The notes under the pieces were generated by a model, which did no database searches, had not been told where the DNA came from, and worked only from the letters and a program-made list of their open reading frames with translations. Source: Bacteroidales bacterium (lineage in GTDB: Bacteria; Bacteroidota; Bacteroidia; Bacteroidales; P3). Taken from it: DNA of 32,521 nucleotides. Location: assembly GCA_017633985.1 (NCBI GenBank), contig JAGBOF010000026.1, forward strand, positions 1-32,521. Reading direction: 5' to 3'. Positions 10,741-32,521 of the stretch are shown in pieces (positions within the stretch are counted from its first letter, which is position 1; each line of letters begins with the position of its first letter). Both the position numbers and the translations under genes were made by a program.

Positions 10741-10747
10741 ACGGGTA

Positions 10748-11653
10748 ATGAAAATACGCAATGAATTTAAGATAGGTCTTGTCGGACTGATTACACTTGT
10801 GGTTTTATTCTTCGGAATAAAGTTTTTAAAAGGCACTGATATTTTTTCATCGGACAGAAGTTATTACGTGATATACGATAATGTTGCGGGAATGCACGAA
10901 AGTTCCTACATATATATCAATGGTATGAAGGCAGGGTATGTAAAGAGGATAACGCCGATGGACAAACTTAATTCACGGTTTTTAGTTGAGATAGCGGTGG
11001 ATAAAAAAGTCTTTCTACCAAAGGACTCACGCTTAACATTGTTTTCCGACGGATTGTTGGGCGGCAAAGCATTGAGAATAGATGCGGGAACAAGTACTGC
11101 GGCACTTACGGAAAAGGATACGCTGATAGGTTTTATTGAAAACGGAATGATGGACGGGCTTTCTTCCAAAATAGACCCGATGATGACTGATTTGTCTTCC
11201 GTTATCAAACGTATAGATACGCTGACCAATTCGCTTAACAATACTTTGAACGCACAGACACAGGAAAATATCCGCCAAACACTTAACAATATCAATTCGG
11301 CCAGCAAGAAACTTGACCACATTGTGCTTAATGCCGATAATTTAATAGAAAACGACAGACATAAGCTGGATAAAATCGTAACCAACATAGAATCCATTAC
11401 CGAAAATCTGCTGTCCATTACCGACAGTATCGATGCTACTAAAATTTCATCGGTATTGGATAATGTTAATTCGGCGGTTGTAAGTTTGGATTCAATATTG
11501 AAAAAGGTTGATAATTCGGAAGGAAATTTGGGATTGTTGCTTAATGACAGTAAGTTGTACAATAACCTAACCGAAAGCACTAAAAACCTTAATGAATTGA
11601 TAGAAGACATAAAGAAAAATCCTAAAAAATACATTAACGTTAAGGTATTTTAA
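10748..11653 (+). CDS. mlaD: MlaD/MCE-family lipid transport protein
   Basis: This 301-residue protein has one N-terminal membrane anchor (about 11-26, IGLVGLITLVVLFFGIKFL). The MCE domain follows at about 38-115 (YYVIYDNVAGMHESSYIYINGMKAGYV and LTLFSDGLLGGKALRI). A long Asn/Ser/Leu-rich helical tail (150-300) completes it. MlaD-type proteins form hexameric rings that shuttle phospholipids between inner and outer membranes with an MlaE permease and MlaF ATPase, neither present here. Cotranscription with the amidase (7-nt gap) and closeness to lptD point to envelope maintenance. A repeat-borne terminator lies downstream. Confidence 0.9.
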   Translation: MKIRNEFKIGLVGLITLVVLFFGIKFLKGTDIFSSDRSYYVIYDNVAGMHESSYIYINGMKAGYVKRITPMDKLNSRFLVEIAVDKKVFLPKDSRLTLFSDGLLGGKALRIDAGTSTAALTEKDTLIGFIENGMMDGLSSKIDPMMTDLSSVIKRIDTLTNSLNNTLNAQTQENIRQTLNNINSASKKLDHIVLNADNLIENDRHKLDKIVTNIESITENLLSITDSIDATKISSVLDNVNSAVVSLDSILKKVDNSEGNLGLLLNDSKLYNNLTESTKNLNELIEDIKKNPKKYINVKVF

Positions 11654-18361: not shown

Positions 18362-21300
18362 ATGAAAAAAATGTTCGGCTTTTTGTTAGCGGTCGTATTT
18401 TTACTGAATGCTAATGTTTTTGCCCAAAAAAACGACGATTCCGGAGGCGATGACTCCAAATGTGAGAACATCTTCCTTCCTTATTACTCCTCTTTTGAAA
18501 GTGATGAAGAAATATCGTTCAGCGATTGCTTTACGGTGGTGAGTTCTGCATCCATGGGAGGTGTTACTTATCCGGGTTTGATAGACGGTGCCATTATCGC
18601 CCATACGGGAACCAAATGTTGTTTGTTCCGATTGGGTGACGGATGTTTGGCATTGCCTTATTTGGGAGACTGGACGGACCTTTCTTATTTGAGGGTTCAA
18701 TTCTACGCAAAGTCAAATACATCCAATGCAGGTAATTTATTCGTAGGTTATTTGACTGACGTTACCGATGCGTCTTCTTTTGTGCAGGTTCAGGAAATTA
18801 CCGCACCTGCCGCAGAAGAAGCATGGACGGAATTATTGACTGTTTCGTTTGAAGGTTGGTCTATTCCTTCGGGCAGTTATATCGCTTTCCGTTATGAAGC
18901 CAATCCCGGCTCTGTTGCTTGGTGGATTGATGACATAAAAGTTGATTACATTCCTAATTGTACGGGAATTGAATATGCTTCGGTTTCCGTATCAAACGTA
19001 GAGGAAAATTCCGCAACGGTATCATTCGATGATTACAATTCAGCACATAATAAATGGAAAGTATTTTACAAGAAATACAACGATACGGATTGGTCAAGTG
19101 AGACTACGGAACAAAAACAATTAACGTTAAATGATTTAGAAACCGCAACACCTTACGATGTTTTTGTCACAACGGTGTGCGGCAATGAAACTTCACCAGA
19201 TACATCACGTATAGTATCGTTTTGTACTTCGGCAAAAACTACTTACGCTCCGTTTGAATTGGATTTTTCGGACGAAACACTTTATGACGGATATATATAC
19301 AGTGTATCAAACAGCGTAAACCGTTGGTCGGTAGGCTCGGCAACAGGAACCGGTGATACTCCTAATGCAATGTACATATCTACCGACGGAGGAGAAACCG
19401 AAAGTATTGAGAAATCTATTGCAACCAATGCTTATGCAGCATTAACTATTGAGTTTGACGATGAGTTTGAACAAACTATTTCATTCGATTACCAATGTCA
19501 TTCAACCAACAGATATTACGGTTCATTGACAGCATTTTTAATCAGTGCCGATGAAGATGTCCCTACTTCATCCATCCCTAGTGATGCTATCGTTATTTTG
19601 GACAGAGCGGTTAAGCAGACTGATTGGGCAACCTGTACTTATTCTTCTACGGAATTGACGGGTAAAGCATACAAACTTGTATTTTTTTGGTTGCAGTCAA
19701 GCGGATACTCTTATGTTAATACTGAAGGTAAATCTGCAGCAATTGATAATATTACCGTATCTTCATCCAGTTGTCTGAAACCGTCAGACGTTACATTAAG
19801 CGAATTGTCTTATTCTTCGGTTCGTGTATCTTGGACGGACGAAAGCACTCCTGATCAATATAAGGTATATTACAAAAGAGTGACTGATGAGAATTGGGAA
19901 ATAGCATCGACTAACGATAAATCAATCCTTTTGACAGATCTTGATCCTGAAACCGATTATATATTGGAAGTTGCTGCAACATGTCAGAATAATGAGTCGG
20001 CACATTCGGACGCCGTTTCATTCAAAACAAGATGCGAAGAAGTAACGGAACTTCCTTGGGCAAGGGATTTTGATGATAAATCGTTGGATTGTTGGATAAA
20101 GGTAAAAACATATCAATATTTTTCTGAATATCCGTACGTATATTTTAATAATACGTTGGTATTTTATAAAGATAACGTGATTGCAACTCCTATGTTTGCA
20201 AAAAATATTAATGAATTGAGAGTTGCATTTGATGTTAGTTTTGCAAGTTACAACGATGACGAAACCTCTGACGGCGGTACATTGTCTGTCGGTGTTATGA
20301 GCGATCCTACTGATGCTAATACGTTTGAAGAAATAGCAACGGTTAAAACAGGTGCCGAATCCCATCAGGTAATAGAATTTACGGATGCCAAATATACAGT
20401 AGGACCTCACAACTACGTTGCATTTAAATTTGTGGGAGCTACTGATGAATATGCTTATATAGACAATGTTGTTGTAAGCGGTATTCCAACTTGTCCAGGG
20501 GCTGATTATCCTCTTAATGTTTCCGATATAACGGATTCTTCGGCAGTTATTGAATTTACAGATTCACACGAAGATCATACAGATTGGAATGTTTACTATC
20601 AGGCATACGGAGCTGAAGATGCCGAGGTCGTAAGAGTTCAGACAAAAACGGTGACTATCGATTTGGAACCTTCCACTCAATATTCAATCTGGGTAAAAGC
20701 TTTATGTTTCGAAGATGACGAAAGTGATGATGCTACGGAGATAAAGAAAATCACAACGAAGGCAAGAATATTGAATCCTGACTTTGAGGTGAATTTCGAA
20801 GATGCTAAAGACGGTGAAAAAGTATTGTCTGTTTCGTCGGGAACTAACCGTTGGGTTATAGGCAAGGCTCCGGATACCGAAGAAGACGATACCGAAGAAG
20901 ATATCGCTGCAAACAATACTTCTTTATATGTATCACAGGATGACGGAGAGTCATTTACTTACACGAATTGGAGTGCAACTGATGCTTATGCGGTGCTTGA
21001 CATTCAGTTCGGCGAAGAAGTTGACTACACGATAGCCTTTGATTATAAAGTAGGCGGTGAAGCTTATTATGATTATCTTTCCGTATTTTTGATTGACGGA
21101 GATAAGGACATACCTGCATCAGGTGAACCTGAAGGACAAAGATTGTTGGCTAATGCACACGATGTTGATTCCTGGGCTTATTTCGAATATAAGGTAAGGG
21201 GTATCGCAAATGCATCCAAAAGACTTGTATTTTATTGGCAGAATCAATATGGAAATGCAACTGACGGAATACCTGCGGCAATAGATAATATTAAGATTAT

Positions 21301-24300
21301 AGGCGAAGCATGCGGAGATGTAAGAAACTTTGTTTTAAGAAACCGCGGTAATAATACGGCTGAAGTTTCTTGGTCTTATCAGGGAGCAGATACCTATACG
21401 GTAGAATATATAGAAACTCAAAATCAATCAAGCGGACAATGGACTTCTGTGGTTGTAAACGATACGGTTGCCAAACTAACGGGATTGACACCCGGAACAG
21501 ATTATACGGTAACGGTACATGCTGATTGCGGTAACAATCCTTCGGGAGGTTACATTTCTTTCAGAACATTTGCCGATGTAATAGTTGTGGGAGAAAACGG
21601 ATATACGCAGAATTTTGAAAATGCGTCTTCTTTGACAAGTTTGGATACCTTAAAGAGTTCAATTAACCATTGGCTTATAGGTTCTGCACCTTATGATTCT
21701 TTGCATTCAAACGGTAAAGCATTATACATTTCTGATGACGATCAGGGTTCTTGGCATTATTCAATGGACGGATATACACGTGCCTACGCTTCGTTCCCTA
21801 TACAATTCGGCGATAAACCTGAATATTCGATTTCATTTGATTATATAGTTAACGGATCGTTATCAAGCGGATATGACAATGAAAGACTGTATGTTTACCT
21901 ACTTCCTTCAACTTATGAGTTAACATCTGATGAATTCATTACAGCATCTGATTCTGCGTTGTTATTAGCAACCAGCGGAGTAGTGGATTGGACTGCGTTT
22001 AAATCAAATCCTTTGTGGAATGTAGCAGGTAAGACATATCAATTGGTATTTTGCTGGTACATGCATTGGTTGACAGAACCTAAGGGAAACAATCCTCCTC
22101 CAGCAATAGACAATATTAAGATTGTAGGATACGATTGTTCTTCTCCTGCTGATTTGGAATTAGTAAAAACAGACAAGCAATCGGCAACTATTTCTTGGAA
22201 AGAAACGGGTACTGCGGAGAAATGGACTGTTTATTACAGGACATTACCTGAAGAAGAAGAAAAGACAGTTGTTGCTACCGACGTCGAAATGAGCGAAGAC
22301 GGTACTGTGACATATACTTTGATAGATTTGAAAGACGGACAGAAATATGCAGCTTATGTATATGCGTCATGCGACAAACGTTCCGCATATCCGACAAACG
22401 AGATTATATTCGGTACTCCTGGTGAGGTCATAAAAGACTTCCCTTACGAATTGACGTTTGAAAATTCCGAAGAAAACAATGTTTTTGAGTTCAGAGGCAG
22501 CGGCGTTAACCAATGGTTTGTGGGAGATGCTACGGGAATTGAAAGTATAGAGTATGACCAAGAACATGCATTGTATATATCGGACGATATGGGTAAAAGC
22601 AATCATTATTCAATAGCATCATCAGAAGTTTATGCTGCAATGACAGTTCAATTCGGAGACAATATTCAATACCAATTAGATTTTGATTATCATGTAGGCG
22701 GTTGCCCGGGTTATGATTTTATGGAAGTTTATTTGGTCGATAATGAAGTTGCATTACCTACTTCAGGTAAACCTACCGGTACTGTTCTTTTGAAAGAAGC
22801 TTGCGGTGTAAATTCATGGGTACATTATTCATGTCTGTTGGAAAAAGTGACGGGTAAGACGTATAAAATAGTATTCTATTGGAAAAACGGAGGACATTAT
22901 TTAGGTCGTTCGAAAGAACCTGCAGGTGCTGTTGATAATATACGCATTGTCGGTTCTGACTGTGCAGCTGTTTCCGATATTACTTTGACCGAAAAGACAA
23001 CCAATTCTTTGGACTTTACATGGAAAGACAATAATGAAAGTACTGAATCATGGACTGTTTACTACAAACAGCAGAACTGGTCGGAATATGAAGATTCTGT
23101 TACTGTTTATGACAAAGAAGTATCATTGTCAGGACTTAATGCAGGAACTTACTATGATGTTTATGTAGTTGCCAACTGCAGCAGAACATCTCATTCGGTT
23201 ACTTCATATATTTTGGCAAGTACAGAATGTGCTCCTATAGAAGCATTGGAAGGTTGGTACGAACCGTTCAGTGTTGCAGACAACCCTTATGACGGTATAG
23301 TTCCTAAATGTTGGACCAGATTGTATGCATATACATTCGGAGGAACGCAATATCCTTATCTGTCTACATTGGATGACGGTTACGGCGGCGGTTCGGATAA
23401 CACCAGACTTATTTTTGATAAAGAGGGAACGATAGCAACTCCTTTCTTTGAAAGTGATTTGAGTAACTTTGAACTTTCTGTAGATATTGCATCCGACGGT
23501 TATATAGAAGGAATAGGTGACTACATGGCAGTAGGTATTTTGATCTATGTTGCTGATGATTTGTATGACTCCACTACATGGGAAGCAGTTGATTGGATTA
23601 AATTTGCACATTTCAGAAGTTCATACCAGAACTTCAAGGTGCCTTTGACCAATATAATTAACAAAGGCGGCAACAAAGCCATTATTTTGAAGATGTGGCA
23701 ACCTTCTCATTTACATGTTTATTGTGACAATTTCAGATTGACGGACATAAGCCATGACCAAAGAGAAGATGCATGCAGTGCTCCTGAAGTAACCGTAAGC
23801 AATGTTATTGCCACAGAAGACGGTGTATCCATTGTTGCTGATGAAAACAGTGCTACAATCACTTGGAACGGCGATGCAACGGATTATTATTGGGATTACA
23901 AACTTACTTCTTACGGACAGTTCTATTCAAGCAACCTTAAATCGAGAACGTTTACAGGATTAACACCGGGAACCGAATATACGGTATATGTACGTACACG
24001 TTGTACCGAATCCAAAGTAGAGCAAACTTCTTCAGGTAATGATACGGTTATCGTAACCGAAACTGGATATGTTTCTCCTTGGAAGGCTGTTACATTCAAG
24101 ACTGCAGGTTTGGCTCCAGACGAATGTCCGAGAATCTCCAACCTTACGGCAAGTGATATTCAGGATACTGAAATAAGCGTAGAATGGACTGCAGACAGAT
24201 TTGCAGATTCTAAATGGCAGATTGCAATAAGTGATTTGGGCGGTGCTGAATTTTTAACTTCAAATGAAATTCAGACAGTCACTGAATCCGAAAAAACGTT

Positions 24301-25909
24301 TACTTCTTTACAGGATGCACATACATATACAGTTTATGTACGTCAGGTTTGTGAATACAATTATTCTGAATGGGATTCTTTGACTGTAACTACATTGAAG
24401 ACATATGTTCCTGCAGATGTTTTGACGGTTCCTCAAACTGATTTAACCCATAATTCGGTTAAATTACGCGGTAAAGTTACTCCTAACGATGACACTGTTC
24501 AAACAAAAGGATTTGAATTCAAATTGGCAAATGCTCCTGTAAGTACTGCTGATACATATACTCCTAATACGGAAGAATTCGAATATACCGTAACTGATTT
24601 GGATGAAGAAACCGATTATTCATACCGTGCTTATATAACCAACCAATTAGGTGTTACTTTGTACGGTGATTGGGTATATTTCACAACGGATAAATACATG
24701 CCTGTACCTCCTACTGTTACCACATTGCCTGTTTTGACCGAAGATTTGGATTCTGTATCCGTTGTACTATACGCTGATGCAGTTGCAGGAGAAGAGTCTA
24801 TTTTGTCGCAGGGATTCCGTTACAGAGAGTTGTCAACGAAGGAAGAAATTGATGTTAAAGTCACTCAAGAAGACGAATTTGTTGCAACTGTTACGGGGTT
24901 GAAACCTTCAACGGAATATAAGGCTTATGCTTATGTTACGACGGCTACTTATAACGGCGATTTTATGGTTAAAGGAAATGAAATAACCTTTATGACCCTT
25001 GATTCAGGTGAACCTGAAGTATTACCTCTTGTTGCAACAAACGCTGCAACTAATATATCTTATGATTCCGCAACATTGCATGCTGTTGTTCAGTTGGGCA
25101 ATGTAGCTGTAACCGAGCACGGATTCGTATACAAATCAAGTGCAGAGGATTCGGTGATAGTCAGAGTCGGAGAAAATGAAGAGCTTGTGTTTGAAGACGA
25201 TGATTTTGCTGGTTTACTTGTTGCATATACCGTAAAAGGTTTGACTGCCGAAACACAATACACGTTCTATGCTTATGTTAAAGCTGGCGGTAATATTATT
25301 GCGGGCGAAGAAAAGACATTCACTACTTTGGCTGAACCAATTGTTGAGACTGATCCTGTTGTACGTACGGCTGATGCATCGGGTATTGATTCAGTTAAGG
25401 CTACGTTGAACGCAGCGGTAACAGTTACAGAAACTTCGAAGGCAATCGTATCTTCGGGCTTCATGTACAGAAAAGCTACCGACAGCGAATACACAACCGT
25501 TGAAGCTGCAATCAATAACGGCACGATGACCTACGAACTTACAGGCTTGACTCCTGATACCGAATATCAGTTTGCAGGCTTTGTAAACACTGCTGACGGA
25601 CATTTGATGGGTGACATCAAGACGTTCAAGACGTTGGCTACATCGGGCTTGGCAGAGATAGCAAACATGATGTTGATAAGCACATATCCTAACCCTACGA
25701 CAAGCGATGCAACCTTGAGAGTTGAAGGTTTGAATTCAGACGCACAGGTTATTATGACTAACACCAACGGTCAGATAATCAGTACGAAGACACTTGCAAA
25801 GGGTCAGACGGAAATGAGAATTGAGACATCAGGTTTGGCTGCAGGCGTATACTACATCAGAGTAATATCTGACGGAGTTACAAGAACTGAAAAACTTATC
25901 AAAGAGTAA
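18362..25909 (+). CDS. Giant modular T9SS-exported surface protein (jelly-roll and Fn3 repeats)
   Basis: This 2515-residue protein begins with a signal peptide (1-21, MKKMFGFLLAVVFLLNANVFA). I see seven jelly-roll domains of the choice-of-anchor/cleaved-adhesin type, ending in motifs like AAIDNIKIIG or WWIDDIKVDY, at about 33-200, 294-469, 560-710, 803-980, 1078-1258, 1358-1534 and 1622-1800. Each is followed by a fibronectin type III domain with a pattern such as SATVSF...WKVFYKK...L-x-P-x-TxY. Five further Fn3-like domains fill about 1920-2426. The end (about 2432-2515) is a type A T9SS sorting domain: YPNPTTSDATLRV, GQIISTKTL, LAAGVYYIRVISDG, TEKLIKE. Such proteins are exported through T9SS and attached to the surface or released. 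An adhesive role is inferred; no protease motif was seen. Confidence 0.92.
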   Translation: MKKMFGFLLAVVFLLNANVFAQKNDDSGGDDSKCENIFLPYYSSFESDEEISFSDCFTVVSSASMGGVTYPGLIDGAIIAHTGTKCCLFRLGDGCLALPYLGDWTDLSYLRVQFYAKSNTSNAGNLFVGYLTDVTDASSFVQVQEITAPAAEEAWTELLTVSFEGWSIPSGSYIAFRYEANPGSVAWWIDDIKVDYIPNCTGIEYASVSVSNVEENSATVSFDDYNSAHNKWKVFYKKYNDTDWSSETTEQKQLTLNDLETATPYDVFVTTVCGNETSPDTSRIVSFCTSAKTTYAPFELDFSDETLYDGYIYSVSNSVNRWSVGSATGTGDTPNAMYISTDGGETESIEKSIATNAYAALTIEFDDEFEQTISFDYQCHSTNRYYGSLTAFLISADEDVPTSSIPSDAIVILDRAVKQTDWATCTYSSTELTGKAYKLVFFWLQSSGYSYVNTEGKSAAIDNITVSSSSCLKPSDVTLSELSYSSVRVSWTDESTPDQYKVYYKRVTDENWEIASTNDKSILLTDLDPETDYILEVAATCQNNESAHSDAVSFKTRCEEVTELPWARDFDDKSLDCWIKVKTYQYFSEYPYVYFNNTLVFYKDNVIATPMFAKNINELRVAFDVSFASYNDDETSDGGTLSVGVMSDPTDANTFEEIATVKTGAESHQVIEFTDAKYTVGPHNYVAFKFVGATDEYAYIDNVVVSGIPTCPGADYPLNVSDITDSSAVIEFTDSHEDHTDWNVYYQAYGAEDAEVVRVQTKTVTIDLEPSTQYSIWVKALCFEDDESDDATEIKKITTKARILNPDFEVNFEDAKDGEKVLSVSSGTNRWVIGKAPDTEEDDTEEDIAANNTSLYVSQDDGESFTYTNWSATDAYAVLDIQFGEEVDYTIAFDYKVGGEAYYDYLSVFLIDGDKDIPASGEPEGQRLLANAHDVDSWAYFEYKVRGIANASKRLVFYWQNQYGNATDGIPAAIDNIKIIGEACGDVRNFVLRNRGNNTAEVSWSYQGADTYTVEYIETQNQSSGQWTSVVVNDTVAKLTGLTPGTDYTVTVHADCGNNPSGGYISFRTFADVIVVGENGYTQNFENASSLTSLDTLKSSINHWLIGSAPYDSLHSNGKALYISDDDQGSWHYSMDGYTRAYASFPIQFGDKPEYSISFDYIVNGSLSSGYDNERLYVYLLPSTYELTSDEFITASDSALLLATSGVVDWTAFKSNPLWNVAGKTYQLVFCWYMHWLTEPKGNNPPPAIDNIKIVGYDCSSPADLELVKTDKQSATISWKETGTAEKWTVYYRTLPEEEEKTVVATDVEMSEDGTVTYTLIDLKDGQKYAAYVYASCDKRSAYPTNEIIFGTPGEVIKDFPYELTFENSEENNVFEFRGSGVNQWFVGDATGIESIEYDQEHALYISDDMGKSNHYSIASSEVYAAMTVQFGDNIQYQLDFDYHVGGCPGYDFMEVYLVDNEVALPTSGKPTGTVLLKEACGVNSWVHYSCLLEKVTGKTYKIVFYWKNGGHYLGRSKEPAGAVDNIRIVGSDCAAVSDITLTEKTTNSLDFTWKDNNESTESWTVYYKQQNWSEYEDSVTVYDKEVSLSGLNAGTYYDVYVVANCSRTSHSVTSYILASTECAPIEALEGWYEPFSVADNPYDGIVPKCWTRLYAYTFGGTQYPYLSTLDDGYGGGSDNTRLIFDKEGTIATPFFESDLSNFELSVDIASDGYIEGIGDYMAVGILIYVADDLYDSTTWEAVDWIKFAHFRSSYQNFKVPLTNIINKGGNKAIILKMWQPSHLHVYCDNFRLTDISHDQREDACSAPEVTVSNVIATEDGVSIVADENSATITWNGDATDYYWDYKLTSYGQFYSSNLKSRTFTGLTPGTEYTVYVRTRCTESKVEQTSSGNDTVIVTETGYVSPWKAVTFKTAGLAPDECPRISNLTASDIQDTEISVEWTADRFADSKWQIAISDLGGAEFLTSNEIQTVTESEKTFTSLQDAHTYTVYVRQVCEYNYSEWDSLTVTTLKTYVPADVLTVPQTDLTHNSVKLRGKVTPNDDTVQTKGFEFKLANAPVSTADTYTPNTEEFEYTVTDLDEETDYSYRAYITNQLGVTLYGDWVYFTTDKYMPVPPTVTTLPVLTEDLDSVSVVLYADAVAGEESILSQGFRYRELSTKEEIDVKVTQEDEFVATVTGLKPSTEYKAYAYVTTATYNGDFMVKGNEITFMTLDSGEPEVLPLVATNAATNISYDSATLHAVVQLGNVAVTEHGFVYKSSAEDSVIVRVGENEELVFEDDDFAGLLVAYTVKGLTAETQYTFYAYVKAGGNIIAGEEKTFTTLAEPIVETDPVVRTADASGIDSVKATLNAAVTVTETSKAIVSSGFMYRKATDSEYTTVEAAINNGTMTYELTGLTPDTEYQFAGFVNTADGHLMGDIKTFKTLATSGLAEIANMMLISTYPNPTTSDATLRVEGLNSDAQVIMTNTNGQIISTKTLAKGQTEMRIETSGLAAGVYYIRVISDGVTRTEKLIKE

Positions 25910-25943
25910 TCGCAGTTTTTTGAAACTCTGATACATAACCAAG

Positions 25944-25969
25944 AACGGGGAAGCAAATGCTTCCCCGTT
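25944..25969 (+). terminator. Strong intrinsic terminator of the giant surface protein gene
   Basis: AACGGGGAAGC (25944-25954) and GCTTCCCCGTT (25959-25969) form a perfect 11-bp stem with a 4-nt loop. TTCTTGTTTTTT follows. It lies 34 nt after the stop codon and is unrelated to the GCCGT repeat family. Confidence 0.92.
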
Positions 25970-26036
25970 TTCTTGTTTTTTGACAGCACATTTTTACGTT
26001 CATACCTTCTGATTTAACCTTGTCAAACGGAAAAAA

Positions 26037-26062
26037 GAAGTCAGGGATTATACTCTGACTTC
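26037..26062 (-). terminator. Intrinsic terminator of the fic gene
   Basis: GAAGTCAG (26037-26044) and CTGACTTC (26055-26062) form an 8-bp stem with a 10-nt loop. Read on the minus strand it is followed by a run of six T (plus-strand A at 26031-26036). It lies 22 nt beyond the fic stop. Confidence 0.8.
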
Positions 26063-26084
26063 ATAACCATTGGCAGCAAATGTG

Positions 26085-26657
26085 TCATTCATGCCGGTCA
26101 TTCATGACAAGATTCGGTACATTGTAGCCTTCGTAATAATAAGACTGCTCAATACCTTTGAATATTATCTCTCTGTTGTCGTATTCCGAAGTAAGGTTTT
26201 CTTTTAACAAAGTTCTGATCTCCAAATCATTCACAGGCGAACGTTCCATTGCCATCAAGTACAAATCTTTATCCACTTTCTGCCAATTGACAACCATTTT
26301 AAGGTGTTTTTTCAGCATCATATCCAACCAAATACGCATACTCCTGCCGTTACCTTCCATAAAAGGATGGGCAATATTCATCTCAACGTATTTTTCTATG
26401 ATTTGCTCAAAACTATCTTCGGGCATTTTTTCAACGGCTTCCAATACAGGAATAATATATAATGAGTTAGCGAAACGGAAACCGCCTTTTGAGATATTGA
26501 CTTTGCGTATCTGTCCTGCAAAATCATACAAACCGCCGAACAAATAACGGTGTATATCCTGCAAACCTTTAACTGTTCCGACCTCAATATTGTTTATATC
26601 GCCCGAGGCGAACAATCTTTTGGCGTTCTCTAAACTTTTACCGTCAATATCCCGCAT
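26085..26657 (-). CDS. fic: Fic/DOC family protein, probable class III AMP-transferase
   Basis: This 190-residue protein has the complete Fic motif H97[11 protein letters not shown]108, including catalytic His97, acidic Glu101 and the phosphate-binding GNGR. A typical upstream flap region is present ([22 protein letters not shown], 43-64). Such enzymes usually transfer AMP to a Ser, Thr or Tyr of a target protein. The C terminus contains S172-YYY-E176-G177, which fits the autoinhibitory consensus (S/T)xxxE(G/N). Its C-terminal place and the overall length match class III Fic proteins such as Neisseria NmFic. No separate antitoxin gene lies beside it, in line with built-in inhibition. The target is unknown. 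Confidence 0.93.
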
Positions 26658-26680
26658 AATTACAAAAAGATTTTATTTTG

Positions 26681-26688
26681 CAAAGATA
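26681..26688 (-). promoter_or_regulatory. Bacteroidota -7 element for fic
   Basis: On the minus strand this reads TATCTTTG, an exact TAnnTTTG match, 23 nt before the fic ATG. It implies a very short leader of about 17 nt. The same TTTTGCAAAGATA context occurs in front of folP (3517-3528). Confidence 0.55.
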
Positions 26689-26749
26689 CAAATTCTTTCA
26701 GTATTTTTAAATTTATTGCTTGCTTTTATTGTCTGTCTGCAAAATTTTA

Positions 26750-26757
26750 TATTTTTG
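26750..26757 (+). promoter_or_regulatory. Bacteroidota -7 element for the ferredoxin-like gene
   Basis: TATTTTTG matches TAnnTTTG and lies 25 nt before the ATG at 26783. No clear -33 TTTG is visible at 19-20 nt upstream. Confidence 0.5.
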
Positions 26758-26782
26758 CAAATAACTAATAATTAATACTGTT

Positions 26783-26998
26783 ATGGCAAAGCGTGATTAT
26801 ACAAACGGCGAGATAGTCATTCATTGGGACAGCAGCTTATGCGTAGGTGCAAAGACTTGTTGGCAAAAACTTCCTTCGGTATTCAAACCTAAACAGCGTC
26901 CGTGGGTAGACCCTTACGGAGCAACGACACAGGAAATCATCGATGTGATAAATCAATGCCCCAAAGGTGCTTTAACATGGGAACGTGTTAGCGGATAA
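26783..26998 (+). CDS. Small ferredoxin-like protein (divergent Fe-S mono-cluster, Fer4_19 type)
   Basis: This 71-residue cytoplasmic protein matches the family annotated as divergent 4Fe-4S mono-cluster domain. Its layout is C20-x5-C26 (SSLCVGAKTCWQ), the family core VFKPKQRPWVDPYGA (33-47), and C59-P-K-G (NQCPKGAL). Only three Cys are present, the count expected for a 3Fe-4S cluster or a 4Fe-4S cluster with an outside ligand. It probably carries single electrons, but its partner enzyme is not nearby. It is divergent from fic with separate -7 elements and is followed by repeat copy 6. Confidence 0.9.
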   Translation: MAKRDYTNGEIVIHWDSSLCVGAKTCWQKLPSVFKPKQRPWVDPYGATTQEIIDVINQCPKGALTWERVSG

Positions 26999-27016
26999 TT
27001 CTAATGTGACGAAAAC

Positions 27017-27090
27017 AACACGCCGTTTTAAGAAATTTTTACGGCGTATTATTTTACTGACGTGGCGTTTTAATTTTTTTAAACGGCGTG
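27017..27090 (+). repeat. Dispersed intergenic repeat, copy 6 (left flank of the accessory cassette)
   Basis: This block carries a hairpin, ACGCCGT (27020-27026) with ACGGCGT (27041-27047), followed by ATTATTTTA, which could end transcription of the ferredoxin-like gene. A second unit shares 32 identical nt with copy 5 (27049-27080). The 29 nt at 27017-27045 are identical to 32242-32270 in the same orientation, on the far side of the five-gene cassette. Confidence 0.85.
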
Positions 27091-27223
27091 TTTTTAAGGA
27101 ACAATTATAATAAAGTGCAAATTGTTGGTATTGAGGTAATACAAATCTTATAAGAAATAATAATTACCGCTATTTTGCGGCAGATAAATTACAGTTTAAT
27201 TTTCAGAAATATTCAAACAAATA

Positions 27224-27254
27224 TTTATCATCTCAAAAAACTTTCTTAACTTTG
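27224..27254 (+). promoter_or_regulatory. Candidate promoter of the accessory cassette
   Basis: The -7 element TAACTTTG (27247-27254) is an exact TAnnTTTG match, and a -33-like TTTA (27224-27227) lies 19 nt upstream. Transcription would start near 27261, leaving about 327 nt before the first ORF. Confidence 0.6.
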
Positions 27255-27345
27255 CAGGTGCTTATCGGAGGGTAGGCGTTAATAATCATTAATTTGATTG
27301 TTATCCTGTTTGAAATATGAAAGCGTTATGCTTATTTGAAACTTG

Positions 27346-27477
27346 TCATCAAAAGTGTGAGAAGCTTTATCCACAAGTTGTAGCATAAAGGTCTTGTCAT
27401 TGCCTGTTATGGCGTGATTTCCATTATAGTTATATCTTTGGATACAGGTTTTTTCTAATTCTCACACACCTTGATGA
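27346..27477 (+). ncRNA. Candidate structured RNA or leader upstream of the cassette
   Basis: A long closing stem is visible. TCATCAA (27346-27352) pairs with TTGATGA (27471-27477), and GTGTGAGAA (27355-27363) pairs with TTCTCACAC (27459-27467), separated by a 2-by-3 internal loop. Inside lie CTTTAT/ATAAAG (27365-27390), a small GCC/GGC hairpin (27402-27413) and a possible TCCA/TGGA hairpin. No open reading frame of note covers it. It sits between a consensus promoter and the first genes, so it may be a leader element or a separate small RNA. I do not recognise an Rfam family. Confidence 0.4.
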
Positions 27478-27587
27478 AAGGTATAATGAAAAGTTGTCAA
27501 TATGTATTAGTGGTTTCACGCTTTCTTGATATAAAATAATTAAAGAAAAGTTCCTTTTGAAATCACGGGGAAACAGAATAAGAATAA

Positions 27588-27785
27588 ATGAAGTATTGTT
27601 TATTAGGTTTAGCGGCATTGCAGACTTCAGTCTGTTATGAACGGGATTATAACTCCTGTCAAACTTCTGCCGTAACAGACGTAGATGCAGGAACGCATTA
27701 TGTATTACAGAAAGACTCTGATTCTAAAGAAAAAGTATCAGTAAAGATAACGCCGTCGGAAATAAAAAGAACATTAAAATTATAA
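27588..27785 (+). CDS. Doubtful 65-residue ORF, possibly a translated palindromic repeat
   Basis: An ATG ORF ends 5 nt before the membrane coiled-coil gene, which favours a translated leader or small protein. Against this, 27621-27680 is rich in palindromes: CAGACT/AGTCTG (27621-27634) and GTCTGTTA/TAACAGAC (27630-27680). The peptide (start MKYCLLGLAALQTSVCYERD) has no convincing membrane segment or lipobox and no family I recognise. It could be a REP-like element that happens to be open. Confidence 0.35.
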   Translation: MKYCLLGLAALQTSVCYERDYNSCQTSAVTDVDAGTHYVLQKDSDSKEKVSVKITPSEIKRTLKL

Positions 27786-27790
27786 ACGAT

Positions 27791-28849
27791 ATGAACAGTT
27801 CAAATAAAACATTCAGAATTATCTGCGCTGCGCTGTTTTTAGCATTTGCAGGTGTCAGTTGCTGGGCAACAGTAGAATCTCTCTTTTTATCATTACCCGA
27901 TATTCCGAAGATTGTTTTCTGGGTAGCGGTAGTTGGTATATTCCTTCTTACTTCGTATATAACAAAGATATTGATTAATTGTTTTAATCCTAATATCTAT
28001 ATGGAAAAACGGGGAATTAAACTTATAGGTTGTATTCTCGGAATAATTCTTTTATGGCTGTGTTTTTCTATGCCGACCAACACTCACACTTTCTTCTATA
28101 AGAAGATGGCGAAAGATATTGCAAAGAAGGAATTAAACTTCTTGAATGTAGAATTAAACAAACTTACTAACGAAGACTTGTACATTCAAAATTATAATAA
28201 TGAATGGGAAAATAAAAAGTCTAAAGTGTTGAGTTTGCAAAAAGTTTATGAAGCCGAAGTTGATGACTTTCAGAAATTAGGACATGGTAAAGAGGCTGAA
28301 GAAAAACTGCAAAAAATAGAAGATGAATTAGGACTGAAACGGGGAGCTTTAGAAAGAAAGTCTGCTCAAGGAATATCCGTTCAAGAAAGAACTGCAATAA
28401 AAAAGTACTATGATAATCAAATCAAGGATCAATTAGAGATTTTGCGTAAAGAACACGAAACAAGATTGCAAAGCCAATTAAAAGGTTTCCGCAGTGAAGC
28501 AAATAAGATTAAGGATATAAAGAAAAATATATCCAATACCTTAAACGAATTGGATAACCCTGCATTAAAACAAACGGAAGTAGTCAATAAGGCGACAATG
28601 CTGGCACAGACGGGACACGCTGTACTTGATGCCAAATACGGCTATCTTAACGTGGATCCTTCATATAAGAAGCAGAATGTTTATTCTCTTGACAGGTTAA
28701 AAAGTATCACTAAAGTTTGGGGTGATTATCTTAAAGGAGAATTTAAAGATAAGAATTACGGTTTGATTTATTGGATTCTGTTATCAATAATTGTTGATTT
28801 AGCAGCATTCTTATTCTTTAATATCGCATTCAAAACAGAAGAATATTAA
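27791..28849 (+). CDS. Multi-pass membrane protein with long coiled coil, first gene of the accessory cassette
   Basis: This 352-residue protein has three N-terminal hydrophobic helices (about 9-27, 40-60 and 76-95). A Lys/Glu-rich, mostly alpha-helical region (about 103-310; ELNKLTNEDL, VYEAEVDDFQKLGHGKEAEEKL) is predicted as coiled coil, followed by a C-terminal helix (about 323-344, GLIYWILLSIIVDLAAFLFF). With four helices both ends lie on the same side and the coiled coil sits on the opposite side from the N terminus, cytoplasm or periplasm. No enzymatic motif was found and I do not recognise the family. It is 20 nt upstream of the GTPase-like gene, so it may be its membrane partner or an oligomeric scaffold. 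Confidence 0.75.
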   Translation: MNSSNKTFRIICAALFLAFAGVSCWATVESLFLSLPDIPKIVFWVAVVGIFLLTSYITKILINCFNPNIYMEKRGIKLIGCILGIILLWLCFSMPTNTHTFFYKKMAKDIAKKELNFLNVELNKLTNEDLYIQNYNNEWENKKSKVLSLQKVYEAEVDDFQKLGHGKEAEEKLQKIEDELGLKRGALERKSAQGISVQERTAIKKYYDNQIKDQLEILRKEHETRLQSQLKGFRSEANKIKDIKKNISNTLNELDNPALKQTEVVNKATMLAQTGHAVLDAKYGYLNVDPSYKKQNVYSLDRLKSITKVWGDYLKGEFKDKNYGLIYWILLSIIVDLAAFLFFNIAFKTEEY

Positions 28850-28869
28850 TTAAAAACACAAATAAAACT

Positions 28870-29796
28870 ATGCCAGATATAGATATAAACACACCGACAC
28901 AGGAAGTAAAAGAATATGCATCTTCTGTGGAAGATAAAATGCAGAATTCTGTATCCGAAACCATTGATGAATATGATTCAGATAGTCAAAACTCTGTAAC
29001 ATACGATGGGTATAATGATATTACAGTCAGTATCAAGGACAAAGATACTCCGATTGTAATACTTTTCGGTCCAAAATCTTGCGGTAAAACGATGACGCTT
29101 GTACGTTTATCCCGTTATTTAAAAGAACAGATGTATACCGTTTCTCCTGACAGAACATTCAGGGATTCGGGAGACAAACATTATGAAAGGATGTGCAGGG
29201 AATTCCCGAATATGATTAATTCCGATGATGCGGCATCTTCCACTAATTTGATTAGTTTCATGCTTGCAAGTATTACAAGAAACGGTAAGAAAATATGTCA
29301 GATCTTGGAAGCTCCGGGCGAATTGTATTTTGACGAAGATAATCCTAAAAAAGATTATCCGACTTATATTAACCAGATAAAGAATTTGAGTAACAGAAAA
29401 ATTTGGATATTTATGCTTGAACCTGATTGGAAGAATGAACAGGACAGGCAAAATTACGTGGATAGGATAACGGATTTCGCTAAAAATATCAGATCCAAAG
29501 ACAGTGTTATTTTGCTAATGAATAAGATTGATAAATCCAATCTTGTCATCAAAGTAGGAGTTGTCAATACATCGGCATTATTTAAGGAGGTTAAGGACAG
29601 TTATCCCGGTATTTTAGAACCTTTTGTGAATAAAATACCTATACTTAATTGGTTTGAGAAGTACCGTTGCAGGATTATTCCGTTCCAAACAGGTGATTAT
29701 ACGGTAACGGACAGCGGGAAGATGAAATATCAAAAAAGCGATGATATTTATCCTATGATGTTATGGAGAGCAATTAGAAAAATAGTGAGGGGTTAA
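28870..29796 (+). CDS. GTPase-like P-loop protein of the accessory cassette
   Basis: This 308-residue soluble protein starts with an acidic, disordered-looking segment (1-55). The P-loop domain shows Walker A G67-PKSCGKT74, a G3-like ILEAPGEL (145-152, where the usual Asp of DxxG is Glu), a strand IWIFMLEPD (178-186) and the guanine-specificity motif NKID (218-221, in VILLMNKID). These features fit TRAFAC-type GTPases. They resemble the double-GTPase groups seen in predicted bacterial conflict systems, but I cannot confirm membership. No membrane segment is seen. It is 4 nt before the next gene. Likely role: nucleotide-dependent switch acting with the membrane proteins around it. Confidence 0.8.
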   Translation: MPDIDINTPTQEVKEYASSVEDKMQNSVSETIDEYDSDSQNSVTYDGYNDITVSIKDKDTPIVILFGPKSCGKTMTLVRLSRYLKEQMYTVSPDRTFRDSGDKHYERMCREFPNMINSDDAASSTNLISFMLASITRNGKKICQILEAPGELYFDEDNPKKDYPTYINQIKNLSNRKIWIFMLEPDWKNEQDRQNYVDRITDFAKNIRSKDSVILLMNKIDKSNLVIKVGVVNTSALFKEVKDSYPGILEPFVNKIPILNWFEKYRCRIIPFQTGDYTVTDSGKMKYQKSDDIYPMMLWRAIRKIVRG

Positions 29797-29800
29797 TATT

Positions 29801-30847
29801 ATGAATATAGAAGTTTACTTACACGGAGTGCCTTCGGGACAGAAAGTTTCTGATAACGGTAAAGATGTTCGGTATATCTCTGGTTTTTATAACGGGAATG
29901 TTTTGCATGCAGACAGAGGATTGGTTATTGAGGTCGTAGGTAAGAAAATTTATTACACATATCTTAAATATGATCTTATTGCCAATGACAACCGACAAGG
30001 TTCCTATTTCGGATTGACTTTAATGATTGATGCGAACTATTACGAAAATTACTTGCATATATATAGTCTGTTGGAAGGTATTTACAGGCAAAAAATTGAC
30101 GGCAGCATCATAAAGAACAATAAGTTTATAGTTGCAGACTTTACCAAACAACTGCAAGAAGAAATTTCTAAAATCATTGAACAGGATATAATATCCAATC
30201 ATACGGGTAAGATTTTTCCGATTTTAGACGGGTTCGTAAAACAAAAAGGTGAATTATTAAGGATTAATTGCGGAGAAATAAATGATTTTGAAATAACCAA
30301 GTTATTAAAAAAGAATCTTGTTATTTATCTTTCTGACCTATATCAAACCAACTTATCCAAAGTAAAAGATTTTAAGCAAAAAATAGAAAATAAAGACAAT
30401 GAAATATCTTCTTTAACAAGTTCGTTGCAGAGATTAGAAAATGAGAAATCTTCCTTAAAATCAGAAATCCAACAAATGAAAGAACAGAACAAAAAACTTC
30501 AAGACCAAAAGTCTTTTAGCGAAAACATTAACAGAATAGAAACTCCGATAAAAGAAATTGCACAATATCTTCAAAAAAGGCAAACTTCGCAAGGTAGGGG
30601 TAAACTTTCGGGAAAAAAGATTTTGTTAATTATTATTGCAGTACTGTTAGCCGTAAATGTAATAATGTTTTTCAAGTTTAATACTACTTTGAAAGAGATA
30701 AACAGAAATACAACTCTGCTTGAAACAATTATTGAAGACCTTTCGGACAACCATTCACAGCCAAAGGCAGATCGTGACAGAACGGCAGAAGATACTGTTT
30801 CACATCAAACAGGCGAAGAACATAAAGAAAAAGATGTTAAAGAATAA
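29801..30847 (+). CDS. Single-pass protein with membrane helix near the C terminus, paralogue A
   Basis: This 348-residue protein has an N-terminal globular domain (about 1-180), a coiled coil (about 185-260, KIENKDNEISSLTSSLQRLENEK), one membrane helix (about 273-291, ILLIIIAVLLAVNVIMFF) and a polar tail of about 57 residues rich in Glu, Lys and Asp. Lys/Arg just before the helix suggest a cytoplasmic N domain and a periplasmic tail. The segment 50-91 (IYYTYLKY..., GSYFGLTLMI, YYENYLHIYSLL) is shared with the last gene of the cassette (46-81). I do not recognise the domain. Its last 14 nt overlap the start of the protease gene, pointing to translational coupling. Confidence 0.78.
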   Translation: MNIEVYLHGVPSGQKVSDNGKDVRYISGFYNGNVLHADRGLVIEVVGKKIYYTYLKYDLIANDNRQGSYFGLTLMIDANYYENYLHIYSLLEGIYRQKIDGSIIKNNKFIVADFTKQLQEEISKIIEQDIISNHTGKIFPILDGFVKQKGELLRINCGEINDFEITKLLKKNLVIYLSDLYQTNLSKVKDFKQKIENKDNEISSLTSSLQRLENEKSSLKSEIQQMKEQNKKLQDQKSFSENINRIETPIKEIAQYLQKRQTSQGRGKLSGKKILLIIIAVLLAVNVIMFFKFNTTLKEINRNTTLLETIIEDLSDNHSQPKADRDRTAEDTVSHQTGEEHKEKDVKE

Positions 30848-31352
30848 TTGCATATTATTGTTTGTGCTGTTGCTGTTTGTTTCTTGTTCAAAGAAAGAGT
30901 CACCTTCTGCGATAACTTACGGTTATAGTGAAGATGTTGTTGAAGAATATGTAGATGTAGTTGAAGTGCCGTTTAAAGAAACAGACGGAGTCAGAATTAT
31001 TCCTGTATCTATTAACGGTATAGATATGACGATGATATTTGATACAGGTGCTTCAACTACATGTATTTCATTAACGGAAGCAATGTTTCTTTTAAAACAG
31101 GGATTATTAACCGAAGATGATATACTTGGGAAGGTTAATGCAACTGTTGCCGACGGCAGAATTACGCAAAATACAATAGTAAGGTTGAAAGAGGTAGTTA
31201 TCGGCGGTAAGATATATTTCAAAGATGTCCGTGCTGTGGTTGTCAATAGTATGGATGCTCCGTTATTGCTCGGTAATGCTGATATTTTAGACAGAGTTGC
31301 ATCGTTTAAAATCGATAATGAAAATGAAACAATACATTTTATATTAAAATAA
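30834..31352 (+). CDS. Retropepsin-like aspartic protease, predicted lipoprotein
   Basis: I place the start at ATG 30834, giving 172 residues. From there the N terminus is a lipoprotein signal (KNNCILLFVLLLFVSC, acylated Cys18), whereas a longer frame from 30720 would bury it. The clan AA fold follows: RIIPVSINGIDMTMIFDTGAS with catalytic D70-T-G, the flap region VNATVADGRI (about 105-114) and the closing PLLLGNADILDR (about 149-160), which corresponds to the LLG motif of single-domain retropepsins. Such proteases act as homodimers. The lipid anchor predicts a periplasmic location, possibly outer membrane. The start overlaps the upstream gene by 14 nt, and the next gene begins 1 nt after the stop. 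Its substrates may be the tails of its neighbours. Confidence 0.85.
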   Translation: MLKNNCILLFVLLLFVSCSKKESPSAITYGYSEDVVEEYVDVVEVPFKETDGVRIIPVSINGIDMTMIFDTGASTTCISLTEAMFLLKQGLLTEDDILGKVNATVADGRITQNTIVRLKEVVIGGKIYFKDVRAVVVNSMDAPLLLGNADILDRVASFKIDNENETIHFILK

Positions 31353-31353
31353 T

Positions 31354-32229
31354 ATGAATTTTGAATTATATATATTTGAAAAGGCAATCAGTACGTACTC
31401 TCAATATGTAGAAGACTCTGCAAAAGATATTTTTCAGAATATAGAGATACAATCTGAAGAACAATTGTCAATATATCATGATGAAACATTGGTATATTAT
31501 ATTTATACCAAACAGACATCCGGCGGATATATCGGGTTCAGTATTGTTTTCAACGGTGTTATTTATCAAAATTTCGCCCATATTTACACTCTGTTCAAAA
31601 ATCTTACAACAGTAGCAGAATTTTATAAAGTTAATGATAAAACTATTATAGGAAATGAATTTTATCAAAAATGCTTAAACATCGTAATCAATGACAGGTT
31701 TGATAAACATTTGTTTGTAACATGTGATAAACCCACTTATAATCTGGTAAATGAATCTTCTGTAAGCTGCAAAACCTTTGATACATCGGGTATGATGTCC
31801 ATCCGACACGTGGAGACACAAGCTCTTATTAATGCCATAAGACAGTATAGATGGGTTTTTATAATTCCGCAGGAAAATGAAACTGTTAATCAGTCGGTTA
31901 TTGCTGATAAAGAGGTTTCGGATAATACTGCAAAGGAAAATTTATCCGAAAAGCCAGAAGCAAAAACAGGAAAATCTAGAACTATACCGGTTCCTATGTT
32001 CTTGGTGTTTTTATTGGCTATCGGCTTTTTTATCTTTGTGGTTATAAACGGAGCGTTAGACAAATACGAAGATTCCAAACCTTCCGAACCTCCTGCAACA
32101 GAAGATTATGATAACCCCATAATTGATTACAACTCCGAAATTGATGACAGTGCAGCAAGAGAACAATACATGCGTGTACTGGAACTGATAGAGCAGTATC
32201 AAAATGAAAATCAAGCTGCAAAAAAGTAA
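31354..32229 (+). CDS. Single-pass protein with membrane helix near the C terminus, paralogue B
   Basis: This 291-residue protein parallels the gene two places upstream. It has an N-terminal domain (about 1-175) with YYIYTK, GGYIGFSIVF and YQNFAHIYTLF aligned to the same block in paralogue A, a polar linker (175-210), a membrane helix (about 212-232, VPMFLVFLLAIGFFIFVVING) and a 58-residue acidic tail. Unlike paralogue A it has no long coiled coil before the helix. Basic residues before the helix (KTGKSR) suggest a cytoplasmic N domain. The start is 1 nt after the protease stop. It is the last gene of the cassette; repeat copy 7 follows. Confidence 0.75.
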   Translation: MNFELYIFEKAISTYSQYVEDSAKDIFQNIEIQSEEQLSIYHDETLVYYIYTKQTSGGYIGFSIVFNGVIYQNFAHIYTLFKNLTTVAEFYKVNDKTIIGNEFYQKCLNIVINDRFDKHLFVTCDKPTYNLVNESSVSCKTFDTSGMMSIRHVETQALINAIRQYRWVFIIPQENETVNQSVIADKEVSDNTAKENLSEKPEAKTGKSRTIPVPMFLVFLLAIGFFIFVVINGALDKYEDSKPSEPPATEDYDNPIIDYNSEIDDSAAREQYMRVLELIEQYQNENQAAKK

Positions 32230-32241
32230 TAAAAAACAAAA

Positions 32242-32270
32242 AACACGCCGTTTTAAGAAATTTTTACGGC
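32242..32270 (+). repeat. Dispersed intergenic repeat, copy 7 (right flank of the accessory cassette)
   Basis: These 29 nt are identical to 27017-27045. The hairpin GCCGT (32247-32251) with ACGGC (32266-32270) starts 18 nt after the last stop and may end the operon, though the T-tract is weak (TTAAAAATCC). Confidence 0.85.
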
Positions 32271-32299
32271 TTAAAAATCCGCACCGAAGTATCAAAAAA

Positions 32300-32322
32300 T
32301 TACGGACTCTCAATGTCCGTAA
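32300..32322 (-). terminator. Hairpin terminator, minus orientation
   Basis: TTACGGAC (32300-32307) and GTCCGTAA (32315-32322) form an 8-bp stem with a 7-nt loop. On the minus strand the stem runs into TTTTTTGA, the better T-tract of the two directions, so it may end a transcript entering from the right. Confidence 0.5.
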
Positions 32323-32440
32323 AACTTTTCCAGCGTTGAAACGTTTTTAACTTCGCCTCAAAAGTCCGAAAAAACCGTCCAAAAACTTATATCAGTGATT
32401 TTGAACTTTTTAGCGTGTTTTTCTGTTGTTAAATAAAAAG

Positions 32441-32480
32441 CGGACGGACGGACAACTATATATAAATGTCCGTCCGTCCG
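32441..32480 (-). terminator. Long GGAC-repeat hairpin, probable terminator of a minus-strand gene right of the window
   Basis: A perfect 14-bp stem (CGGACGGACGGACA at 32441-32454, its complement at 32467-32480) is built from tandem GGAC units around a 12-nt loop. On the minus strand CTTTTTATTT follows, fitting an intrinsic terminator; on the plus strand ATTTCTT follows. The remaining 32323-32440 holds no gene that I can see. Confidence 0.6.
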
Positions 32481-32521
32481 ATTTCTTAACAGGAGAAGTA
32501 CGGAGTATATTTGAATGTATA

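Follow-up and report, generated by a model that had tools for sequence, protein, structure and literature searches.

Organization of the cassette

The window analysed here is one whole contig of 32,521 bases (JAGBOF010000026.1) from the 2.39 Mb genome of a Bacteroidales bacterium (assembly GCA_017633985.1). It carries a cassette of five open reading frames (ORFs), A to E, which run head to tail on the + strand from 27791 to 32229, with intergenic gaps of 20 (A/B), 4 (B/C), -14 (C/D) and 1 nt (D/E). Gene A (27791-28849, +) encodes 352 amino acids (aa), with three N-terminal transmembrane (TM) helices, about 230 aa predicted to lie outside and one C-terminal TM helix; a P-T-N-x-H motif after TM3 is invariant. 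Gene B (28870-29796, +) encodes a soluble, P-loop GTPase-like protein of 308 aa, probably a remote relative of the DO-GTPases. Its Walker A (G1) motif GPKSCGKT spans residues 67-74 (29068-29091, +), its Walker B (G3-like) motif EAPGE residues 147-151 (29308-29322, +) and its G4 motif NKID residues 218-221 (29521-29532, +). G67, P68, G72, K73 and T74, E147, P149, G150 and E151, and N218, K219 and D221 were invariant in 36 aligned rows. Gene C (29801-30847, +; 348 aa) has a predicted cytosolic N-domain, possibly GAP1-N-like, a coiled coil, a TM helix (residues 273-291) and a variable outer tail. Gene D (30834-31352, +; 172 aa) encodes a retropepsin-like aspartic protease with a lipoprotein-type N-terminus, an accessory of the cassette. 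It matched PF13975 at 49.8 bits (cut-off 28.2), and its predicted catalytic DTG lies at residues 70-72 (31041-31049, +), with D70 and G72 invariant in 29 rows. Gene E (31354-32229, +; 291 aa) is a paralogue of C with an N-domain, one TM helix (residues 213-231) and an outer tail.

The packing and gaps of the five genes, GPKSCGKT and NKxD in B, and DTG in the lipoprotein-type D had been described in a first-pass annotation of this DNA and were confirmed. Its start of the cassette at 27588 was moved to 27791. The earlier start adds a 65-aa ORF (27588-27785) that had no relatives in the cassette loci compared (best tblastn E-value 0.36) and was rejected as a sixth cassette gene; nucleotide similarity to the nearest genus-mate cassette begins about 15 nt 5' of A. 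Proportions of nonsynonymous and synonymous differences (pN/pS) between the window and the nearest genus-mate, L125 (loci are cited by L numbers), were 0.10/0.79 for A, 0.23/0.84 for B, 0.38/0.72 for C, 0.26/0.65 for D and 0.40/0.80 for E, so that pN was below pS in all five genes. No known RNA family was found within 25850-32521, and a promoter and terminator scan gave matches at chance level.

Conservation and co-inheritance

Genes were mapped with iterated hidden Markov models (HMMs) in 43 loci, namely 39 from a scan of genome contigs (42 minus L039, L043 and L045, which lie on the same contigs as L005, L006 and L007), three from another search and the window. Locus searches were seeded from B, and free-standing C, D or E genes would escape them. 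Alignments left out L016, L017, L026, L036, L040, L047 and L048, and that of E also L010, L031, L035 and L038.

The pair A-B was kept in 43 of 43 loci, in the order A-B-C-(D)-E and on one strand as far as each contig extends. Contigs of L017, L047 and L048 end ahead of the D position; among the remaining 40 loci D was present in 33 and not in seven (L011, L022, L027, L041, L042, L044 and L046). Gene E was found in all 39 loci whose contig reaches it, the contig of L024 also stopping too early. It scored weakly in L031 and L035, was split in L016 and is truncated where the contig stops in L026 and L036. Four further loci of the genus (L128-L131) agreed with this order; L128 has one additional ORF between C and D, and in L131 B is broken and the contig ends after D.

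Of 393 genomes of the order, four had a B gene, the source genome (one B match) among them; in the genus the count was 6 of 14, with two copies in two of these six. Gene A was found in 2 of the 114 genomes of the order searched, both B-positive. Distance matrices correlated for all ten gene pairs (r 0.54-0.85; 0 of 2000 permutations each; 24 five-gene loci). A chance cluster of unrelated genes, in favour of which nothing was found, is refuted by the fixed order in 43 loci and by these correlated distances, and its probability is negligible. A to E are one inherited unit, in which A, B, C and E form the core and D is an accessory. The view of the first-pass annotation that the five genes act together is supported, as regards joint inheritance, by the fixed order, the correlated distances and the restriction of A to B-positive genomes; the genes are not mostly found apart. 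Carriers among named strains are Bacteroides luti, Parabacteroides distasonis and Segatella copri. Two loci are labelled as non-Bacteroidota, L036 (an Opitutales metagenome-assembled genome, MAG) and L049 (a Roseburia MAG); because L049 nests among Bacteroidales on the tree, both are suspected to be mis-binned contigs.

Membrane topology

Topology was predicted from hydropathy and from the charge bias of aligned rows. Hydropathy of the window proteins gave four TM helices for A and a single one for either of C and E; B had none, and D showed a segment at its N-terminus. Across the rows, four were counted in 31 of 36 A proteins, none in 36 of 36 B proteins and one in 35 of 36 C proteins; for E the count was one in 24 of 35 rows, two in nine and none in two. 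Lysine plus arginine per 100 residues of A amounted to 22 at the N-terminus, 3 in loop 1-2, 16 in loop 2-3 and 38 at the C-terminus, and the 14.6 of the 229-residue loop is uninformative alone. Net charge before the TM helix was +2 in C and +3 in E, and about 0 after it. Because this bias places the N-termini inside, an outer location is predicted for the large loop of A and for the C and E tails. The profiles of the C and E N-domains matched each other at an E-value of 4.8e-13 over 178 columns, and the two proteins are paralogues, as had been proposed. In the predicted layout the GTPase thus stays in the cytosol, the paralogues C and E each cross the membrane once and expose variable tails outside, and A crosses it four times and has a large domain on the outer side, in agreement with the path across the membrane drawn earlier.

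Mean identity was 0.15 in the tail of C vs 0.28 in its N-domain, and 0.17 vs 0.32 in E. This variation, the range of C tail lengths (36-231 aa), a BACON domain in one E protein and a cassette without a cytosolic output gene would suit an outside-in receptor, in which diversified C and E tails bind ligands and switch B, and B acts on a chromosomal cytosolic partner. Such a receptor leaves unexplained the signal bias of downstream genes and the repeated link to D, both described below, and is considered improbable.

GTPase B and its relatives

Protein B of the window had no Pfam or NCBIfam match above cut-off, and the 36 B members matched only general P-loop families. Weak matches of a phylum search, with their follow-up, led to three-gene cassettes (A'-B'-C') at nine loci in other Bacteroidota (L056, L058, L060, L085, L086, L087, L091, L092 and L093, with L087 counted by layout). 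The A HMM matched eight of these (not L087) at E-values of 3e-5 to 2e-14, the B HMM three (L060, L058 and L092; 3.5e-6 to 1.7e-3) and the C HMM none of the nine. Six of the nine B' proteins (not those of L085, L086 and L087) were compared with Pfam DO-GTPase1 at its cut-off of 27 bits, which was passed by L060, L091 and L092 (the last only with neighbours in frame); L056, L058 and L093 fell under it.

The comparison set consisted of nine systems from plasmids, of which seven carry a GASH annotation and the other two have a similar layout, and of two Bacteroidota systems (L089 and L090). Profile B matched B' at an E-value of 1.7e-10 over 236 columns, the first plasmid-type DO-GTPase at 2.8e-8 over 199 and the second plasmid-type GTPase at 4.2e-5 over 184, and profile B' matched the second plasmid-type GTPase at 1e-15. 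Reversed controls of these comparisons gave 0.089 or worse. Control GTPases from the same genome (14 rows, 13 different proteins; control locus L122 yielded no ORF) matched B across just 17-44 columns. Taken singly, six of the nine B' proteins matched B across 165-215 columns, that of L086 across 117 and that of L091 across 229 at an E-value of 0.018. By inspection, the alignment of B shares the spacing of [DE]xxGE and [NT]KxD.

Several comparisons weigh against this kinship. Window B scored 16 bits against Pfam DO-GTPase2 (E-value 0.01, cut-off 27), and membership of that family was rejected (0 of 21 relatives). The L093 B' protein matched B across only 33 columns. A single FtsY matched B at 1.1e-6 over 61 columns, and a P-loop can thus score well by itself. 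Single GTPases of the first plasmid type gave mixed results (26-179 columns, E-values 7.5e-5 to 0.4), and those of the second type (22-59 columns, 6.5e-4 to 0.052) did no better than the best control (L119, 3.1e-4). The case is therefore made from the length of the profile matches, the [DE]xxGE/[NT]KxD spacing and the bridge through B', not from E-values alone. On these grounds a remote kinship of B with the DO-GTPases is probable, with the A'-B'-C' cassettes as the link; the assignment is likely but not proven. Two features of the family were found in B across the 36 rows: the G1 and G4 motifs, from which GTP binding is predicted, and an invariant Walker B glutamate, for which both E147 and E151 qualify. 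Which of the two corresponds to the family glutamate is a matter of our own reading.

Partner proteins and comparison with described systems

Profile A matched A' at an E-value of 7.5e-16 over 191 columns. Profile C matched C' at 2.3e-4 over 91 columns (2.3e-5 with trimmed sets). Neither DUF4407 (2 of 36 members matched, best E-value 0.013) nor GASH was supported as an identity of A. The N-domain of C was compared with ten GAP1-N sequences (L102 omitted), with 60 column shuffles for each comparison; some C' sets omitted L086, L087 and L091. C together with C' matched GAP1-N over 93 columns in register, pairing HGxPxGq with HGYxdGH and RxGsYfGxTL with RPGCVWTHtL. The match suggests that the C N-domain is GAP1-N-like, and is suggestive only.

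Some of these results count against a tie to the described systems. The reversed A-A' control reached 7.8e-4, over 18 columns, and A had no match to GASH (hhalign E-value 0.53). Without three divergent rows, C matched C' only at 7.7e-3 over 32 columns. The match of C with C' to GAP1-N was weak (E-value 0.024, 0 of 60 shuffles as good), and other sets gave 0.031 (C alone, 1 of 60), 0.14 and 0.15 (C', 2 of 60 and 4 of 60), 0.21 (C with E, 10 of 60) and 0.77 (E alone, 51 of 60).

DO-GTPases belong to predicted "GTPase-centric conflict systems", and the family has a conserved Walker B glutamate, according to Kaur et al. (2020; PMC7159879). There, two paralogous GTPases are given for 38% of DO-GTPase-GAP1 systems; systems of the GAP1-N1 type have GASH and those of the GAP1-N2 type an FNIII protein. 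The cassette resembles these systems in a P-loop GTPase with a Walker B glutamate beside a partner with a possible N-domain of the GAP1-N kind, and in changing neighbourhoods, variable extra components and membrane parts. It differs from them in several respects. A full GAP1 (N, M and C domains) was not found: C and E have one N-domain, followed by a coiled coil (in C) and a TM helix, the M and C domains being judged from length and layout and not by a domain-by-domain search. GASH was not matched, nor was FNIII among the rows listed for the cassette proteins (for C, the best 25 of 39). No N-terminal zinc ribbon is visible in B. The cassette has a single GTPase and a doubled single-pass partner, a four-TM partner (A) and a retropepsin-like lipoprotein as its usual accessory. 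GAP1-N2 systems were rejected as an identity, being found in 0 of 247 Bacteroidota genomes. Paired GTPases were not found in the source genome. At L033 a second, divergent B-like gene (10454-11263) stands after E and recalls the paired GTPases of the classical systems.

The best PADLOC match of B was mad8 of MADS (E-value 1.5e-5, profile positions 20-187 of 314). The likeness goes no further than this weak match, as the other four cassette proteins match no MADS model; no text describing mad8 was found in the literature. Among the titles listed in a literature search none was on this five-gene set, although it may be listed in the supplementary tables of Kaur et al. (2020). The first-pass annotation knew of no described system with this exact set and overlooked the DO-GTPase family; because B is probably a distant member, the five genes do not stand apart from all systems described so far. 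As a full GAP1 and GASH are missing, a well-described complex explains the remaining genes at most in part.

Protease D

Retropepsin-like aspartic proteases are active as homodimers. D resembles this group (clan AA; PF13975, TIGR02281) in its PF13975 match above cut-off and its DTG, and differs from it as a short lipoprotein tied to a GTPase cassette, with a TIGR02281 score (40.6 bits) under the cut-off of 57.95. In a pattern scan of 33 cassette D proteins, 30 had DTG and two DSG; the one missed, L024, reads DTG followed by X letters. In L130, of the same genus, DNG replaces DTG, and D activity may therefore be lost in places.

On the B tree (36 rows) the seven loci without D require six changes, of which at least three are forced by well-supported branches; these may be gains or losses. 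The rows without D are not clustered (183 of 500 shuffles were as low), and two of them, L044 and L046, sit on long branches where placement is unsure. Of 114 genomes of the order, 35 gave a D-family match; among the 49 matches listed, 28 sit in open frames of at least 600 aa. A 680-aa protein of L028 joins TPR repeats to a D domain (Pfam), and L165 and L168 look alike by inspection. A D-family lipoprotein lies in the same gene run in two of the nine distant A'-B'-C' loci (HMM E-values 3e-46 and 3e-44), directly after C' in L085 and one gene further on in L091. Because D recurs with such distant cassettes, its association with them is either old or repeatedly favoured. Separately, the second D-family domain of the source genome (L165, 6989-9352) belongs to a long, exported-looking protein, near which genes similar to DnaJ and TerB were seen by inspection.

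Regulated proteolysis had been proposed as the central output of the cassette. In one form, outer parts of A, C and E would sense envelope damage, D would cut a partner (perhaps a C or E tail) and B would reset or drive the process as stress signalling. In favour of this, 33 of 40 loci have D placed after C and before E, its Asp and Gly are conserved in the 29 aligned rows, and it recurs in 2 of 9 A'-B'-C' loci. The one relevant mention of DO-GTPases found beyond Kaur et al. (2020), in a PSP-operon study (PMC11237479), reports that one is predicted to have a role in membrane-related stresses. Against it, at least three gains or losses of D fall on the B tree with the other four genes retained throughout, L130 reads DNG, the cassette has no regulator gene, and a sporadic distribution is unusual for housekeeping stress control. 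Stress signalling of this form is unlikely. Proteolysis as the central output is not supported, because the D family is found in 35 of 114 genomes of the order vs A in 2 of 114, and because D is absent from 7 of 40 loci in which the other four genes stay.

Neighbouring genes and proposed function

No flanking gene family was found in more than 5 of 46 loci. One site is shared by L031 and L035, and the other sites differ between genus-mates; L022 and L027 have a common upstream neighbour by eye. Such a mobile neighbourhood with variable extras is also seen in the classical systems, and the extras may act as effectors. Riders were defined as downstream genes on the same strand with gaps of up to 100 nt (L017, L024, L026, L036, L047 and L048 omitted). 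They were signal-like in 14 of 19 cases; for the remaining flanking ORFs the figure was 80 of 394 (Fisher p 1.9e-6). One of the riders, in L013, is a secreted-type non-specific endonuclease. Near the cassette, outside the rider rule, are a relative of that endonuclease (L030), an SNase lipoprotein (L023) and a caspase-domain protein (L033). Among the distant loci, an SNase gene directly follows D in L085, and the genes upstream in L086 include one for a caspase-domain protein, one for a protein of papain type and one for a membrane protein of the 8xMP kind. In two genomes of one genus, large proteins that look RHS/SpvB-like by inspection are encoded directly upstream of A'-B'-C' (L060, 1756-7101; L093, 169-3792).

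A ZorA/ZorB-like (MotA/MotB-type) pair stands directly after E in L010 (13279-15586), and a relative of that ZorB (L164, 1-516) immediately precedes genes for a D protein and an SNase-like protein. Together with the signal-like downstream genes, these would fit an envelope machine for transport, motor function or something akin to secretion, in which B would drive a complex of A, C and E to assemble or open, with the exported neighbours as cargo. As the L010 pair had no relatives at the other cassette loci compared, and as no core gene resembles an outer-membrane channel in our reading, such a machine has a low probability.

Our preferred reading is a GTPase switch that reaches across the envelope and whose exported effectors can be exchanged; it fits conflict or envelope defence better than housekeeping, and give this a probability of about 0.45. 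B would be a cytosolic GTPase of the DO-GTPase kind. The N-domains of C and E would tether it to the inner membrane and would detect or determine its nucleotide state, and A, with its four TM helices and large outer domain, would act as scaffold or sensor. A change of nucleotide state would be relayed through C, E and A to the outer parts. Exported hydrolases would be swappable outputs, with D in most cassettes and nucleases, peptidases and other exported proteins near some. The data establish the gene set and its order, the family links of A and D, the co-inheritance, the changes in D and the signal-like bias of the cargo, whereas we infer that B hydrolyses GTP and binds C and E, as well as the direction of signalling and the biological role. 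A role in conflict or envelope defence is probable, and is favoured over housekeeping because the pattern is sporadic and mobile and the cargo variable; defence, competition and envelope-stress reporting cannot be told apart at this level.

A number of observations temper this interpretation. Riders occurred in just 10 of 40 loci; the sequence beyond E is 1000 nt or longer in 35 of the 40. The rider test was crude, as among the 14 signals at least two, those in L018 and L010, seem to be false or are TM anchors, and L013, L019 and L023 are related; because of these false-looking signals and related loci, the p of 1.9e-6 is too small. The PADLOC scan covered ten chosen neighbour proteins rather than whole flanks. 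An origin from phages or plasmids was rejected, since no B relative was found in the phage and plasmid collections, nor in viral contigs by a pattern-based scan. A strong claim of defence is weakened by the absence from these collections and by a comparison with defence models limited to the chosen neighbours.

In a wider and more doubtful version of the GTPase switch, the cassette would be a bacterial GTPase-coupled receptor system, in which paired single-pass proteins with diversified outer tails and a four-TM partner couple the periplasm to a soluble cytosolic GTPase, with changing exported proteases and nucleases as outputs. It would then be a membrane-built third branch of the GTPase-centric conflict systems. 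If the GTPase switch is right, this predicted class would gain a transmembrane form in Bacteroidales, and bacteria would have a GTPase-based route for signalling through the inner membrane. The four core genes would then be a defined set with which to ask if the GTPase controls effectors outside or responds to signals from there.

Other features of the window

A 36-nt repeat brackets the cassette (27013-27048 and 32238-32273). It was rejected as att sites or transposon ends, as a 29-nt piece of it is dispersed, with 22 genome copies at up to 3 mismatches. Upstream of the cassette lies a gene for a Fic protein adenylyltransferase (26085-26657, -; NF046029, 296 bits). It was rejected as part of the system, since across 45 other loci a good match was found only in L006 (53% identity) and a weak partial one in L023 (E-value 4e-4). 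Further upstream, 18362-25909 (+) encodes an exported-looking repeat protein of 2515 aa, the end of which resembles a type IX secretion sorting domain.

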